From Desulfuromusa sp. (GTDB lineage Bacteria > Desulfobacterota > Desulfuromonadia > Desulfuromonadales > Geopsychrobacteraceae), in assembly GCA_016744675.1 (NCBI GenBank), contig JADGDX010000001.1:62001-126000 (forward strand): DNA of 64,000 nt, given 5' to 3'. Below the pieces are notes generated by a model. The model was not told where the DNA came from. It saw only the letters and a list, made by a program, of their open reading frames with translations, and made no database searches. Positions 3,272-8,505 of the stretch are shown here, in pieces. A program made the translations under genes and the position numbers. Position 1 is the first letter of the stretch. Each line of letters opens with the position of its first letter.

Positions 3272-3333
3272 GCAAATTAATTTCGAAGAGATATGTACGG
3301 CACCTTTTTAATGTGCAAGTTTGAATTGTGCCG

Positions 3334-4728
3334 TTATCCTACCTCGTTATATTCCCGTGCTCGAAATGTGACACCAAGTCCTTTTGCCACCTGTTCACAG
3401 GCTCCAATGTCAACTCCAGGGTACGTGACTGCTGTAGCAAGAACTTCAGGAATATAATCCCCTGCTTGGAGCAGAAAATCTTTAACCGCCTGATAGCTCT
3501 TCTGGGCACCAAATGTTGAACGGCAGAGATGATGATAACTCTTTGCATCTGAAGCATTTAAAGATATCGAAATTGAATCAATTAACCCTTTAAGTTCAGG
3601 AAGAATATTGCGGCCATGAACCAGGTTTGCCTGTCCGTCACTATTGATTCTGACTTTAACGCCTTTATCGTGAAGCCAAGTTGACATTTCTTTTATCAGA
3701 TCAAGTCTAAGTAGTGGTTCTCCGTAACCGCAAAAGACAATTTCTGTGTAACGGGTCGGGTCGCCTATGACATGTTTAATCTCATTGACCGAGGGTTCAT
3801 GATCCAATTGTAATTCGTGCCCTTTGACAATAAAATCACTGAATTTTGCACAAAAAATGCAACTGTTTGTGCAGCGGTTGGTAATATTGAGATAGAGTGA
3901 ATCGCGAATCTGGTAGGCGATTTTAGCGCTTTGATCGATTGTTCCGAAACCAAATAAATTGTAACAATTACGGCTCGTCACACGAGCTACATCTTCAACT
4001 GTAAGCTGCTTTATTTCTGCTAGCTTTTCCGCTGTATATCGAACATAAGAAGGTTCATTTCGTTTGCCACGAAACTTTTGTGGTGAAAGATAAGGGCAAT
4101 CCGTTTCTATCAGCATTCTATCGATAGGGATATGTGAAATGATCTCGCGGATAGCTTCGTTTTTAGGGTAGGTAATCGTCCCTGTAAATGAGAGATAAAA
4201 ACCAAGGTCAAGGCATTGCTTGGCCATTTTGGAGTCACCGCTAAAGCAATGCAGAACGCCACCAACTTCTTTGGCATTCTCATCTCTTAGAATTTCAATG
4301 ACGTCATCGTGTGCATCACGATCATGAACGATGATTGGTTTTCCAACTTTTTTTGCCAATTGAATCTGTTGGCGAAAAGCTAATCGCTGTGTTTCGCGAG
4401 GAGACCTGTCGCGATAATAGTCGAGGCCAATCTCTCCAAGGGCTACTACTTTTGGGTGAGAGAGCATTGATTCGAGCTTTTCAAGTGTTGCATTGTTGAT
4501 TTCTCTCGCATCGTGGGGGTGAACACCAACTGCTGCAAAAATATTGTCATAGCTCTCGGCAACATTGATACTTTTTATAGAACTCTCAAGGTCGCATCCA
4601 ATGGTGAGGATGTGACTGATACCATTATTTTTTGCCCGCTCAACAGTTTCGTCAAGGTCTTTAGCGAATTGTCCGCCATCGAGATGCGCGTGACTGTCAA
4701 CCAGCAAAGGGAGTTGATGATTTGTCAA
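3334..4728 (-). CDS. tatD: TatD-family metal-dependent hydrolase fused to a radical SAM domain
   Basis: This is a two-domain protein. Residues 1-260 form a TatD nuclease with the usual metal ligands visible: HAH (13, 15), Glu99 in GEIGLDYY, His135, His160 and Asp210 in ETDCPYLSP. Residues 275-464 form a radical SAM domain with C-x3-C-x2-C at 286/290/293 (CTNSCIFC) and a GYGEPLLR motif after it. This TatD-linked radical SAM fusion is known from Geobacter relatives; the role of the second domain is not established. It starts with TTG at 4728 with GGAG eight bases upstream. It lies downstream of metG on the same strand, about 70 bases away, in a block with yaaT and holB. Confidence 0.88.
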   Translation of the reverse strand: MTNHQLPLLVDSHAHLDGGQFAKDLDETVERAKNNGISHILTIGCDLESSIKSINVAESYDNIFAAVGVHPHDAREINNATLEKLESMLSHPKVVALGEIGLDYYRDRSPRETQRLAFRQQIQLAKKVGKPIIVHDRDAHDDVIEILRDENAKEVGGVLHCFSGDSKMAKQCLDLGFYLSFTGTITYPKNEAIREIISHIPIDRMLIETDCPYLSPQKFRGKRNEPSYVRYTAEKLAEIKQLTVEDVARVTSRNCYNLFGFGTIDQSAKIAYQIRDSLYLNITNRCTNSCIFCAKFSDFIVKGHELQLDHEPSVNEIKHVIGDPTRYTEIVFCGYGEPLLRLDLIKEMSTWLHDKGVKVRINSDGQANLVHGRNILPELKGLIDSISISLNASDAKSYHHLCRSTFGAQKSYQAVKDFLLQAGDYIPEVLATAVTYPGVDIGACEQVAKGLGVTFRAREYNEVG

Positions 4729-4800
4729 AGGGTTTACTCCAAATTAAGCAGGGCGCAATATGCGCCCTGTTGTAAATGAAAAAATGTTGTCTCTTTTATG

Positions 4801-6327
4801 CTACTTTTCTATCCTTGGGAAAAGTGGTGCTGCCTTCTCAACCATTCCTCCAGGTTTTAATCCTCCCCATTGATCTTGTCCATCGAGGGATAGGTTTTTA
4901 CTGTCACAGCCTAGAATATTAAGAATTTTTTCACCGGTATCGGGCATGAAAGGAGCGACGAGCAAAGCGACAATACGAATAGATTCAAGCAGGTTGTACA
5001 TAACTGTTGCCAGACGTTCACGCTGCTCAGAATCTTTTGCTAATGCCCATGGTGCCGTTTCATCAATATACTTGTTACCTGCTGAAATAAGTTCCCAGAT
5101 CGCCATCAGTGTTTTATTAAATGCCATGTTGCTGAGGTGTTGATCGACTTTTTCGATAGTCATCGCAAAGAGATCAATGAAGGCTTGATCAACTTCATTA
5201 TTCTGACTTGGAGCTGGGAGTTCCCCGTCGAAGTATTTTCCTAGCATCGCTGTTGAACGACTAACCAGATTGCCAAGGTCATTTGCAAGGTCAGAATTAA
5301 TTCTATGAACCAACGCAGTATGAGAAAAATCACCATCAAGTCCAAAAGGGACTTCTCTCAGCAAGAAGTAGCGAATTGCGTCAACATTGTATTTGTCGAT
5401 TAACATATTAGGCTCGACAACATTACGCAGACTCTTACTCATCTTTTGCCCTTCGACAGTCCACCAGCCATGGGCGAAAACTTTTTCTGGTAGCGGAAGT
5501 CCTGCAGCCATTAGAAATGTCGGCCAATAGACAGCATGGAAGCGTAAAATGTCTTTCCCGATAACATGAACAGCGGGCCAGTAGGTCGCAAAGTTTCCGT
5601 CTTTATCTTCGGGGTAGCCCAAGGCAGAAATATAGTTAGTCAATGCATCAAACCAGACATATATGACGTGCTTTTCGTTGCCTGGAGCTGGAATTCCCCA
5701 TGAAAAAGAGGTTCTTGATATGGAGAGATCACGTAAACCCTCACGGACAAAACTGAGTATCTCGTTCCGACGCGATTTGGGCTGGATGAAATCAGGGTTC
5801 TCTTCGATGTGTTTGAGGAGTTGATCTTGATATTTACTCATCCGAAAGAAATATGATTCTTCTTTCAATTTTGTTGTTTGGCGCCCGCAATCAGGGCAAT
5901 TTCCATCCAATAACTGGGTTTCCGTCCAAAATGTTTCACATGGGGTGCAATACCAATCTTCATACTCTCCAAGGTAGATATCGCCCTTGGCTTCAATGGC
6001 TTTAAACTGTTCTTGAACAGTATGCTTATGACGTTCTTGAGTGGTTCGGATAAAATCTGTATTGGAAATGTTGAGTTTTGTCCAAAGAGCCTGAAAGCGT
6101 TTCACGACCCGGTCAGCTAACTCTAAAGGAGTCTCCCCATTTGCTTTAGCTGCCGTTTCAACTTTTTGACCATGTTCATCAGTCCCTGTAAGAAAGGCAA
6201 CATCGTAACCGCGGGCGCGTTTGTAACGTGCAATAACATCGCAGGCCAAGGTTGTATATGCATGGCCGATGTGAGGGACATCGTTGACATAATAGATAGG
6301 TGTTGTCACATAAAAAGTTTTGCTCAT
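4801..6327 (-). CDS. metG: Methionyl-tRNA synthetase
   Basis: Class I synthetase charging tRNA-Met. It has HIGH at residues 19-22, KMSKS at 295-299, and two CxxC zinc knuckles (127/130 and 144/147), as in the short-insert bacterial type. At 508 residues it ends after the anticodon-binding helical domain and lacks the C-terminal EMAPII/Trbp111-like dimerisation domain present in many bacterial enzymes. The start is well supported by GGAG upstream of ATG at 6327. It lies between yaaT and tatD on the minus strand; the Geobacter-type holB-yaaT-metG order is kept. Confidence 0.97.
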   Translation of the reverse strand: MSKTFYVTTPIYYVNDVPHIGHAYTTLACDVIARYKRARGYDVAFLTGTDEHGQKVETAAKANGETPLELADRVVKRFQALWTKLNISNTDFIRTTQERHKHTVQEQFKAIEAKGDIYLGEYEDWYCTPCETFWTETQLLDGNCPDCGRQTTKLKEESYFFRMSKYQDQLLKHIEENPDFIQPKSRRNEILSFVREGLRDLSISRTSFSWGIPAPGNEKHVIYVWFDALTNYISALGYPEDKDGNFATYWPAVHVIGKDILRFHAVYWPTFLMAAGLPLPEKVFAHGWWTVEGQKMSKSLRNVVEPNMLIDKYNVDAIRYFLLREVPFGLDGDFSHTALVHRINSDLANDLGNLVSRSTAMLGKYFDGELPAPSQNNEVDQAFIDLFAMTIEKVDQHLSNMAFNKTLMAIWELISAGNKYIDETAPWALAKDSEQRERLATVMYNLLESIRIVALLVAPFMPDTGEKILNILGCDSKNLSLDGQDQWGGLKPGGMVEKAAPLFPRIEK

Positions 6328-6410
6328 TTTTTACTCCTCATAACGGTCTTGTCTATATACGTTTAGCGCAAATTGATAGTGTTGGTACGGTTTTGTCAAA
6401 AAAAACTGAA

Positions 6411-7478
6411 TCAGGTCGATTGCTCAGGTGGTTTCGCTGGCCGGTTTGGTTTCCGTCGTGGCCTCCTCCTGCGACGTTTTGTTTTCTCCTGAGCAGCTTC
6501 TCCTTGAGTGTCAGGTTTAGCAGCGTCAGGTTTAGCTTGGGGTGTGTTGCTCTGTCCCTTTTGTTGATTAGGGCGTTGGCCAGGTTTTGTTGTTTTACTA
6601 GGCCGGGAAGAGTGTTGCTTTTTAGGTGATGATGGCTGTTTTTTTTGTGTTTCTTTGGGTGCTTCTGTTACGCCATCAATTTCTTTTTGCAACTCACTGA
6701 TATGCATTTGACAACGTTCGCCATTTCTGGACAAAGTAACTTTTTGCGCCAGGATATCTCGTGAGATAACTTCAGCAGTCCCCTCTTGTAGTTGCAACTT
6801 TTTACCACACTTTGGGAGAGTTTTTTTCATTTCGTTGTAGGTTTCATATTCATATGCAAGGCAGCAAAGCAAGCGTCCACATTGGCCAGATATTTTAGTT
6901 GGGTTTAAAGCGAGACCCTGAGCTTTGGCCATTTTAACCGATACAGGTGCAAATTCACGTAAATGACTGCTACAACAAAGTTCTCTGCCGCATATTCCTA
7001 GGCCGCCAACTTGTTTTGCCTCATCGCGGACCCCGATCTGGCGCATTTCAATACGAGTGCGAAAGTGTTGCGCGAGATCACGAACAAGTTCGCGAAAATC
7101 AACACGTCCATCTGCTGTAAAATAAAAAATAATTTTTGATCCGTCGAAGAGATATTCTGCACGAACTAGCTTCATCTCCATATTTCGTTTTTTGATACGA
7201 ATTTGGCAAAATTGAAGCGCTTCGGTTTCTCTATGAGAATTATTTTCGGCCATTTGGAGGTCGCTCTCATCGGCCATGCGTAGGATTGATTTTAACTTAG
7301 GAGGAGCTTGGTCAGGCGTAATTTCTCGCGGTTCTCTGACAATCGTGCCCAATGCTCGTCCGCGCTCTGTCTCGACGATAACTTGGTCACCAGGGACCAA
7401 TGGGAAATCTCGAGCATCAAAGTCAAAGATTTTTCCAGCGGTGTGAAAAGAGATGCTGACGATTTTAAGTGTTTCCAT
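6411..7478 (-). CDS. PSP1 domain protein (YaaT/RicT-like)
   Basis: This is a PSP1-domain protein related to Bacillus YaaT (RicT), a subunit of an iron-sulfur complex that affects RNA processing in Firmicutes. In Deltaproteobacteria its role is not well known. The PSP1 core (about residues 55-235) contains the conserved cysteine pattern GLGICGRELCCSSHL and GQCGRLLCCLAYEYETY. After about residue 275 comes a low-complexity tail rich in Lys, Arg, Pro and Gln that ends in a run of arginines (KRRRRRPRRK), which probably binds nucleic acid. It is encoded 58 bases after holB and upstream of metG, as in Firmicutes and Geobacter. The start has only a weak ribosome site. Confidence 0.88.
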   Translation of the reverse strand: METLKIVSISFHTAGKIFDFDARDFPLVPGDQVIVETERGRALGTIVREPREITPDQAPPKLKSILRMADESDLQMAENNSHRETEALQFCQIRIKKRNMEMKLVRAEYLFDGSKIIFYFTADGRVDFRELVRDLAQHFRTRIEMRQIGVRDEAKQVGGLGICGRELCCSSHLREFAPVSVKMAKAQGLALNPTKISGQCGRLLCCLAYEYETYNEMKKTLPKCGKKLQLQEGTAEVISRDILAQKVTLSRNGERCQMHISELQKEIDGVTEAPKETQKKQPSSPKKQHSSRPSKTTKPGQRPNQQKGQSNTPQAKPDAAKPDTQGEAAQEKTKRRRRRPRRKPNRPAKPPEQST

Positions 7479-7536: not shown

Positions 7537-8505
7537 TCAGGCAGCAGCTATTCGCATCAGCATGACTTCAAGAGCCAAGCGGCGGTTAACATTTCGTTGT
7601 AAATGAAAACGGGCAGTTTCTAGTGCTTTTAACTTCAGAAGTAAACTGGTTGTCGTTGTATTTTTTTGACGTTGTAAGCAGTCGATTAAATCCAGATTAA
7701 CAAGTTCTTCTTCTGGACGATTATGTTTTAACAGGAGTAGATCCCTGAAGAAAGCTTGAAAAATATCCAGAATATCTGGCAGGACTTCTTTGTCTTTTTC
7801 AAGTTCATCGGCCAATGAGAAGGTTGGAATAATACTTCCTGCGGACAATGCTGACAAGGATTGAATCAAGGTACGGCGTTTTTCCAGAAAGAGCTCTCTG
7901 TTTGTTCCTAACGCTTTCTTAAAACTTCCTTCTGATAAGGAAGCTAGGATTTTTGCTTGAGTCTCATCCAATTCCAATTTTGATGACAGGATAACAGCCA
8001 AGTTGTGTTTAGGTAAGCGCGAAAACGAAAGCCTTTGGCAACGTGATAATATGGTTGTGAGAAGTTTGTCTGGCTGATTTGTTAGAAGGATAAGAATCGT
8101 TCCTGGTTGCGGTTCTTCAAGGGTCTTTAGGAGTGCATTTGCTGCTCCGGTGGTTAGGTGCTCGGCTCCATCAATAAGGCAATATTTACCGTTTGCCTCC
8201 ATCGGGCGTAATGAGAGGTCCTGCTGTAGCTTTCTGATCTGATCTATTTTAAGAGCTTGACCCTCAGCAGCGAGAAGATGAATGTCTGGATGGTTATTGC
8301 TTTCAACTTTAAGGCAGGCCGAACAGCAACCACAGCCATTTTTGCTTTGACATAGCTGGGCGCAGACAAAGTCCATAGCCACCATTTTTTTTCCAACACC
8401 ATCTGGTCCTTCAAAAAGATAAGCATGGGCAACATGCTGGCTATTGAGCGCACGAAGCAGAATATTCTTTTGTTGTTTGTGCCCAACTATCGAATCAAAG
8501 GTCAT
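7537..8505 (-). CDS. holB: DNA polymerase III, delta' subunit
   Basis: AAA+ clamp-loader subunit. The P-loop GPDGVGKK is at residues 33-40, a zinc-binding cysteine cluster (CGCCSAC) is near 58-64, and the family motif ANALLKTLEEP and sensor-1 region LILLTNQPDKLLTTILSRCQ follow. The length of 322 residues is typical. It is first in the minus-strand block holB-yaaT-metG-tatD. In many relatives thymidylate kinase (tmk) precedes it; here the upstream side is a 280-base gap and a divergent transporter, so tmk is not adjacent. No strong ribosome site precedes the ATG. Confidence 0.93.
   Translation of the reverse strand: MTFDSIVGHKQQKNILLRALNSQHVAHAYLFEGPDGVGKKMVAMDFVCAQLCQSKNGCGCCSACLKVESNNHPDIHLLAAEGQALKIDQIRKLQQDLSLRPMEANGKYCLIDGAEHLTTGAANALLKTLEEPQPGTILILLTNQPDKLLTTILSRCQRLSFSRLPKHNLAVILSSKLELDETQAKILASLSEGSFKKALGTNRELFLEKRRTLIQSLSALSAGSIIPTFSLADELEKDKEVLPDILDIFQAFFRDLLLLKHNRPEEELVNLDLIDCLQRQKNTTTTSLLLKLKALETARFHLQRNVNRRLALEVMLMRIAAA

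Follow-up and report, generated by a model that had tools for sequence, protein, structure and literature searches.

We found that a single gene in the window (i.e., the whole 64,000-nucleotide stretch of Desulfuromusa sp. DNA that was analysed) encodes a TatD-type nuclease and a radical SAM domain in one continuous chain, and that this fusion is a real, well conserved member of an already catalogued protein family. Residue conservation suggests that the radical SAM enzyme and the TatD are both functional and joined through what we infer to be a conserved contact between the two. The function that we consider most likely is one in which radical and hydrolytic steps are coupled to process a nucleic-acid end or a nucleotide, a tentative reading to which we assign a probability of roughly 40%.

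One gene, two intact domains

The gene lies on the minus strand at positions 3334 to 4728 and encodes 464 amino acids between a TTG start codon (4728; preceded by GGAG at a distance of 8 nt) and a stop at 3334–3336. The coordinates given in the original prediction hold, with the strand to be stated as minus: the plus-strand frame over the same interval is riddled with stops. Residues 9–260 (3949–4704, minus strand) form a TatD domain of group II (HxH) and of the YcfH/YabD type, which matched TIGR00010 with an E-value of 1.7e-90 (302.9 bits, above the family cut-off of 206) and PF01026 with an E-value of 1e-92. Residues 269–461 (3346–3924, minus strand) form a radical SAM domain, which matched TIGR04038 with an E-value of 2.3e-82 (275.5 bits, above the family cut-off of 129.7) and PF04055 with an E-value of 3.6e-15. 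At the level of sequence profiles, chance is ruled out as the source of either match.

Conservation was assessed in a full-length alignment of 79 rows, in which D11, H13, H15, H70, H72, E99, H135, H160, E208 and D210 of the TatD half and C286, C290 and C293 of the radical SAM half were all invariant (79/79); this bears out the earlier claim that the TatD metal ligands and the C-x3-C-x2-C motif are intact. In 49 further fused loci, positions 11, 13, 15, 99, 135, 160 and 210 and the three cysteines never varied (48 or 49 readable rows). The group II ligand set (D11, H13, H15, E99, H135, H160 and D210) was present in 79/79 rows, the assignments outside the HxH motif being ones that we take to apply to the fusion protein. 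Group II itself is defined by that HxH motif in the available text of PMC10085689.

The AlphaFold2 model of the whole chain reached a mean pLDDT of 94.0 and a pTM of 0.78, values that in our judgement exceed what would be expected for models of freely hinged domains. Foldseek matches of the whole chain included TYW1 and PFL activase. The whole-chain fold search was dominated by TatD matches and the radical SAM half was therefore folded alone (pLDDT 91.4, pTM 0.87).

Distribution and origin of the fusion

Our locus set comprised the best 80 of 580 confirmed loci (from at least 592 candidate stretches) and thus represents the nearest relatives. TatD and radical SAM sequences lay in a single open reading frame in all 80 of these best 80 loci; two of them (L047 and L059) are cut at the contig start, with TatD sequence still present. 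By record title, the best 80 of the 580 belonged mostly to Desulfuromonadales, Geobacteraceae, other ‘Deltaproteobacteria’ and Nitrospirae, with many MAGs, and many Geobacter records carry the fused gene, as the earlier statement about Geobacter relatives had it. Across the window’s phylum, TIGR04038 scored above its cut-off in 57 of 297 genomes, the open frame being 442 codons or longer in each. The corresponding number for Nitrospirota (the phylum of G297, the genome of locus L092, a ‘Nitrospirae’ record) was 49 of 118 genomes, where rows at contig ends are among those with the shortest frames (184 to 438). In all of the 49 further loci (29 and 20, from two phyla, the window’s own locus left out), TatD and radical SAM sequences were adjacent, on the same strand and in the same frame. 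Among 14 control genomes, that of Methanosarcina acetivorans alone matched TIGR04038 at E≤1e-25, with a score above the cut-off. Given that the family bears the name ‘TatD family nuclease-associated radical SAM protein’ (TIGR04038), the architecture is already catalogued. Single-query searches of viral contigs found no relative of the fusion, and profile scans of viral contigs returned only remote matches (27–31% over part of the domain).

A tree of 25 unfused TatD rows and 83 fused rows (roughly half of alignment A2 and further rows, near-duplicates included) needed one change, with support of 42/65. The fused TatD domains grouped on this tree with weak support, and a single fusion origin was recovered in 38% of 200 bootstrap trees. 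It is possible, judging from these sequences, that the fusion arose in one to three events.

The fused TatD and its unfused counterparts

To compare the two forms of TatD we aligned 81 fused with 23 unfused rows, leaving out rows that duplicated others and the two divergent TatDs of the window’s own genome (L118 and L119). Fifteen of 16 catalytic or phosphate-site positions were identical across all 81 fused and 23 unfused rows, and the sixteenth (position 163) was Ser in 81/81 fused and 21/23 unfused rows. As these residues are the same as in unfused TatD, the substrate class of the fused hydrolase is probably unchanged. The predicted TatD half superposed on S. aureus 6l25 with a Z score of 42.4 and an rmsd of 0.8 over 253 residues. 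Activities given for the TatD family in the available text of PMC4176340 and PMC10085689 are 3′ exonuclease action on ssDNA and RNA and cutting at AP sites, and the accessible part of PMC10085689 describes the cellular role of these widespread nucleases as still unsettled.

Five TatD positions (213, 242, 246, 249 and 250) were specific to the fusion, i.e., they carried a residue found in at least 85% of fused and at most 35% of unfused rows. Two of them, D246 and R249, lie in the final TatD helix, which precedes the linker (D246 to R249; 3982–3993, minus strand), and were invariant in the fused form (81/81 rows and 49/49 loci, the two sets partly overlapping) and variable in the unfused form, with D at 246 in 1 and R at 249 in 5 of the 23 rows. 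The combination of unchanged TatD catalytic residues with this putative fusion-specific surface patch (D246, R249) is new here.

Three TatD genes were found in the window’s genome, and the fused one has by far the highest score. We inventoried TatD genes in 69 sampled genomes of the window’s phylum, 14 of which carry the fusion (matched by position). The fused TatD was the sole TatD at E≤1e-20 in 8 of these 14, and 12 of the 14 had no second TatD above the family cut-off, the genomes with one being G025 and G063. With no other TatD found in 8 of the 14, the fusion stands in for the ordinary YcfH/YabD-type enzyme, which is a further new result. It also follows that knowledge of the job of the radical SAM half would point to the substrate of TatD itself.

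The radical SAM domain and its stand-alone relatives

The sequence and fold marks of the radical SAM superfamily (C-x3-C-x2-C, GxGE and the core fold) are present in the second half of the chain. The cluster-binding motif C286-x3-C290-x2-C293 (3850–3873, minus strand) was found in 79/79 rows and 49/49 further loci. A GxGEP motif that by analogy would bind SAM (C333-G-Y-G-E-P338; 3715–3732, minus strand) follows the invariant C333 (79/79 rows, 49/49 further fused loci and 3/3 stand-alone relatives); E337 and R360 were also invariant (79/79 and 49/49). The VKGH loop (V301–H304; 3817–3828, minus strand) is kept in the fused form, with K302 and H304 each found in 78/79 rows and in 49/49 further loci, and R275 was replaced by Gly in 1 of the 49. 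The chain ends in a conserved V463-G464 (3337–3342, minus strand). Of the 78 complete fused chains, 76 have V/L/I-Gly at this end; the exceptions, L062 and L091, lack that Gly, and L112 is truncated by its contig. Overall, conservation was higher in the radical SAM half (mean identity 65%) than in the TatD half (56%), and this held in 2935 of 3081 pairs.

We compared the predicted core with known structures. The best matches were PFL activase (3c8f; Z 16.4, rmsd 2.5, 174 aligned) and NifB (6y1x; Z 16.4, rmsd 3.2, 180 aligned), followed by viperin (Z 15.4, rmsd 2.5 over 174), TYW1 (best Z 14.2), RlmN (13.6), MoaA (13.2) and QueE (12.6). Judged from sequence and predicted model together, the radical SAM half is a minimal core with intact cluster and SAM motifs; with the top fold rows tied, its substrate cannot be read from its fold. 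Sequence-profile matches in the PDB at E≤0.1 were limited to RlmN (6.3e-5), which acts on RNA, and MoaA (7.9e-4), which acts on GTP.

Three stand-alone TIGR04100 relatives were 31.5, 37.5 and 47.5% identical to the window’s radical SAM domain. The cluster cysteines, C333, G336, E337 and R360 were common to fused and stand-alone forms, and eight positions kept in at least 95% of the 79 fused rows were specific to the fused form (I274, R275, K302, H304, L339, L342, L376 and G464). As far as these alignments indicate, the fused-only residues of the radical SAM half (R275, K302, H304 and the C-terminal Gly) are new here as well. Given that K302, H304 and R275 are absent from the stand-alone proteins, the substrates of the two forms may differ.

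Two of the three relatives were encoded next to vitamin B6 or NAD genes. Specifically, the relative in L116 (MT835993.1; region 4402–6597) lies beside PdxR and pyridoxamine kinase with a TIGR04002 gene directly upstream, and that in L140 (MT836245.1; region 3299–5591) beside nadC and a Sir2-type deacylase; the third, on a Monoglobus plasmid (L115), is of the stand-alone type and had no vitamin or NAD genes in the stretch fetched. Homologues of those vitamin and NAD genes were not found among 932 ORFs of the best 80 fused loci. A vitamin or pyridine-cofactor role is possible for the TIGR04100 cousin, going by these two loci. Both L116 and L140 are human-fecal records filed as ‘Bacteriophage sp.’ that look bacterial, and by reading L116 also has sporulation-type sigma/anti-sigma and FeoB genes.

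Genomic context

The upstream neighbour of the fusion gene is metG (4801–6327), on the same minus strand, and the metG cluster continues on that strand with ricT (RicT/YaaT family; 6411–7478; NF041131, 5.7e-91) and holB (DNA polymerase III delta prime; 7537–8505; TIGR00678, 4.8e-59). The family model of ricT (6411–7478) is described as iron-sulphur containing; metG separates this gene from the fusion gene. Between metG and the fusion gene, at 4749–4769, we also read by eye a perfect inverted repeat with 9-bp arms and a 3-base loop, 20 bases upstream of the start codon. It lacks a clear U-run and may serve as an attenuator or terminator.

MetG was upstream of the fusion in 29 of the best 80 loci, some of the other contigs ending before the MetG position, and an unfused TatD likewise follows MetG in one locus (L181). 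When neighbours were clustered in 79 of the best 80 loci (L104 left out), genes of the metG cluster were the commonest, followed by a gene for a TPR protein in 10 loci and phosphoglycerate mutase in 4. Ten of 65 same-strand neighbours were annotated (cysteine desulfurase, two ABC components, enolase, acrylyl-CoA reductase, TPR, phosphoglycerate mutase and three unnamed). The look for neighbours shared across genomes that had been proposed as a check thus turned up recurring ones, namely the metG-type cluster and the TPR gene, and no generally shared partner gene among the clustered fusion loci.

Relation to DNA repair genes

We asked whether the fusion tracks with known repair enzymes. In the window’s phylum, nfo was found in 21/26 fused vs. 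61/122 other genomes (p = 0.005) and xth in 5/26 vs. 65/122 (p = 0.002), and one or the other in 21/26 vs. 103/122 (p = 0.77). The single-gene differences, whose p values ignore kinship, may reflect descent. The fusion as a replacement for AP endonucleases was rejected, as nfo or xth is equally frequent in fused genomes. In total, 70 of these 148 genomes had xth and 82 had nfo; the window’s genome has nfo and no xth (E≤1e-20).

Spore photoproduct lyase (SPL) is a radical SAM enzyme of DNA repair, and SPL-like proteins (PF20903) were found in 46 of 99 genomes of the window’s phylum and in only 4 of 118 in Nitrospirota. At E≤1e-20, PF20903 was present in 0/18 fused vs. 46/81 other genomes of the window’s phylum (hand count), and three of the four Nitrospirota genomes with PF20903 carry the fusion. 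The latter observation means that there is no general exclusion and that the first pattern is probably one of descent; on the same ground we rejected the idea that the fusion replaces SPL-like proteins. One genome (G079), in which a contig end truncates the radical SAM match and leaves it just under the cut-off, was counted with the others in both the AP-endonuclease and the SPL tests. C333 was also considered as an equivalent of the hydrogen-donating cysteine of SPL, an idea that we dropped since the profile alignment sets it opposite a non-cysteine before GTGE of SPL-like proteins; the hydrogen-donating cysteine of SPL lies elsewhere. The distributions of AP endonucleases and SPL-like proteins, as read from gene content, fail to explain the fusion. 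Of the original prediction’s guess at a DNA-damage role, what stands is that TatD enzymes have known activities of this kind (available text of PMC10085689 and PMC4176340), the two distributions being neutral.

Proposed function and alternatives

We propose that a single bifunctional enzyme would take the place of an ordinary YcfH/YabD-type TatD. Sequence and predicted model show a TatD barrel whose metal-dependent phosphodiesterase site is unchanged, a short linker and a minimal radical SAM core. D246 and R249 of the last TatD helix would pack against the N-terminal end of the radical SAM domain, with R275 and the C-terminal tail perhaps forming part of the same contact. The radical SAM half would reductively cleave SAM, and the resulting 5′-deoxyadenosyl radical would react with the type of nucleic-acid end or nucleotide that TatD hydrolyses (e.g., a blocked or modified 3′ terminus), after which the TatD half would trim the acted-on terminus from the strand. 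If the two halves do share a nucleic-acid substrate, radical chemistry and nuclease trimming would be joined in one enzyme. The fold itself gives no pointer to nucleic acid, as the matches to RlmN and MoaA are weak and the ranking is led by PFL activase, NifB and viperin, all within about 1 Z. A narrower version, in which the enzyme is dedicated to nucleic-acid end repair, the radical step converting or cleaving a 3′-terminal lesion or modification and the contact-held TatD barrel removing the remnant, seems to us unlikely as it stands; were it true, a radical SAM enzyme would be coupled to a nuclease within one chain. In this version, the conserved Gly tail at the C-terminus may control access to one of the active sites.

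The alternative that survives best is a two-step small-molecule enzyme, in which the radical step produces or rearranges a cofactor, vitamin or nucleotide-like metabolite, and the amidohydrolase-type barrel of the TatD half hydrolyses the product or a precursor. The vitamin-gene neighbours of the stand-alone relatives (PdxR, pyridoxamine kinase and TIGR04002 in L116; nadC and the Sir2-type deacylase in L140) favour this explanation and count against the nucleic-acid reading. TatD also belongs to a wide hydrolase fold, with phosphotriesterase-like proteins and amidohydrolases next at Z of about 19–21, and the minimal core resembles viperin and QueE too. However, the TatD catalytic residues are unchanged from unfused TatD, K302, H304 and R275 are missing from the three stand-alone relatives, and homologues of the vitamin genes occur neither in the best 80 fused loci nor near the Monoglobus relative. 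On balance we regard a small-molecule substrate as possible, if somewhat doubtful.

Fusion of two independent enzymes for co-expression only, with no shared substrate, would fit the widely differing gene neighbourhoods; we nevertheless think it improbable, given that the fusion is kept in 80/80 of the best 80 loci and 49/49 further loci of two phyla and has its own conserved residues in both halves. It is also very unlikely that the radical SAM half is a protein modifier in the style of glycyl-radical activating enzymes, aimed at a partner protein or at the C-terminal glycine of another chain and with TatD merely attached: its top structural match is indeed PFL activase 3c8f and most complete chains do end in Gly, but that match is tied with NifB, other families follow within about 1 Z, and no generally conserved neighbour fit to be the substrate protein was found in the loci examined. 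A sensor role (redox or SAM), in which the iron-sulphur domain switches the nuclease without radical chemistry, would suit an apparently retained TatD function and carriers from groups that we take to be mostly anaerobes, but the invariant GxGE and core positions and a conservation above that of TatD are more than a pure sensor needs, which makes this reading just as improbable as an activase.

We thus return to coupled processing of a nucleic-acid end or nucleotide as the preferred reading. In the open-access literature (titles and abstract openings) we found no paper on the fusion, TIGR04038, TIGR04100 or TIGR04002, and no account there of a combined substrate, in line with its having been called undescribed.

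Comparison with known systems

In domain content, the window protein does not differ from TIGR04038, whose model description names no reaction; the link to a TatD protein that the family name expresses is realised in the window within the same chain. PFL activase, NifB and viperin have the same radical SAM core fold (best Z 15.4–16.4) at 14–17% identity. The alignment with SPL-like proteins covers the cluster and GxGE region (56 columns, probability 43, E-value 0.00025), and the window protein has no PF20903 match at E≤0.001. In RlmN and Cfr, a methyl-carrying cysteine stands seven residues before the first cluster cysteine (C118 of RlmN is named in PDB titles); in the fused proteins the corresponding position, 279, is Tyr in 79/79 rows.

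A TatD nuclease (QatD) is also encoded together with other enzymes, including a QueC-like protein modifier, in the Qat anti-phage system, according to the available text of PMC13329287. Against the QatD model (NF041926) the window protein scored 110.8 bits, below the cut-off of 230. The TIGR04100 family (rSAM_pair_X) is homologous to the fused radical SAM domain, of the same size, and shares its cluster cysteines, C333 and GxGE. It differs in that the window’s domain reaches 180.6 bits against its model, below the cut-off of 262, and in that its three examples have no K302, H304, R275 or terminal Gly and no TatD match in the surrounding stretches fetched. Finally, TatD proteins of the YcfH/YabD type (S. 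aureus 6l25/2gzx, T. maritima 1j6o and E. coli YcfH 1yix) are 40–43% identical to the TatD half of the window protein and share its fold (Z 38.6–42.4); unlike them, the window protein adds a radical SAM domain, and the fused TatDs have D246 and R249 in common.
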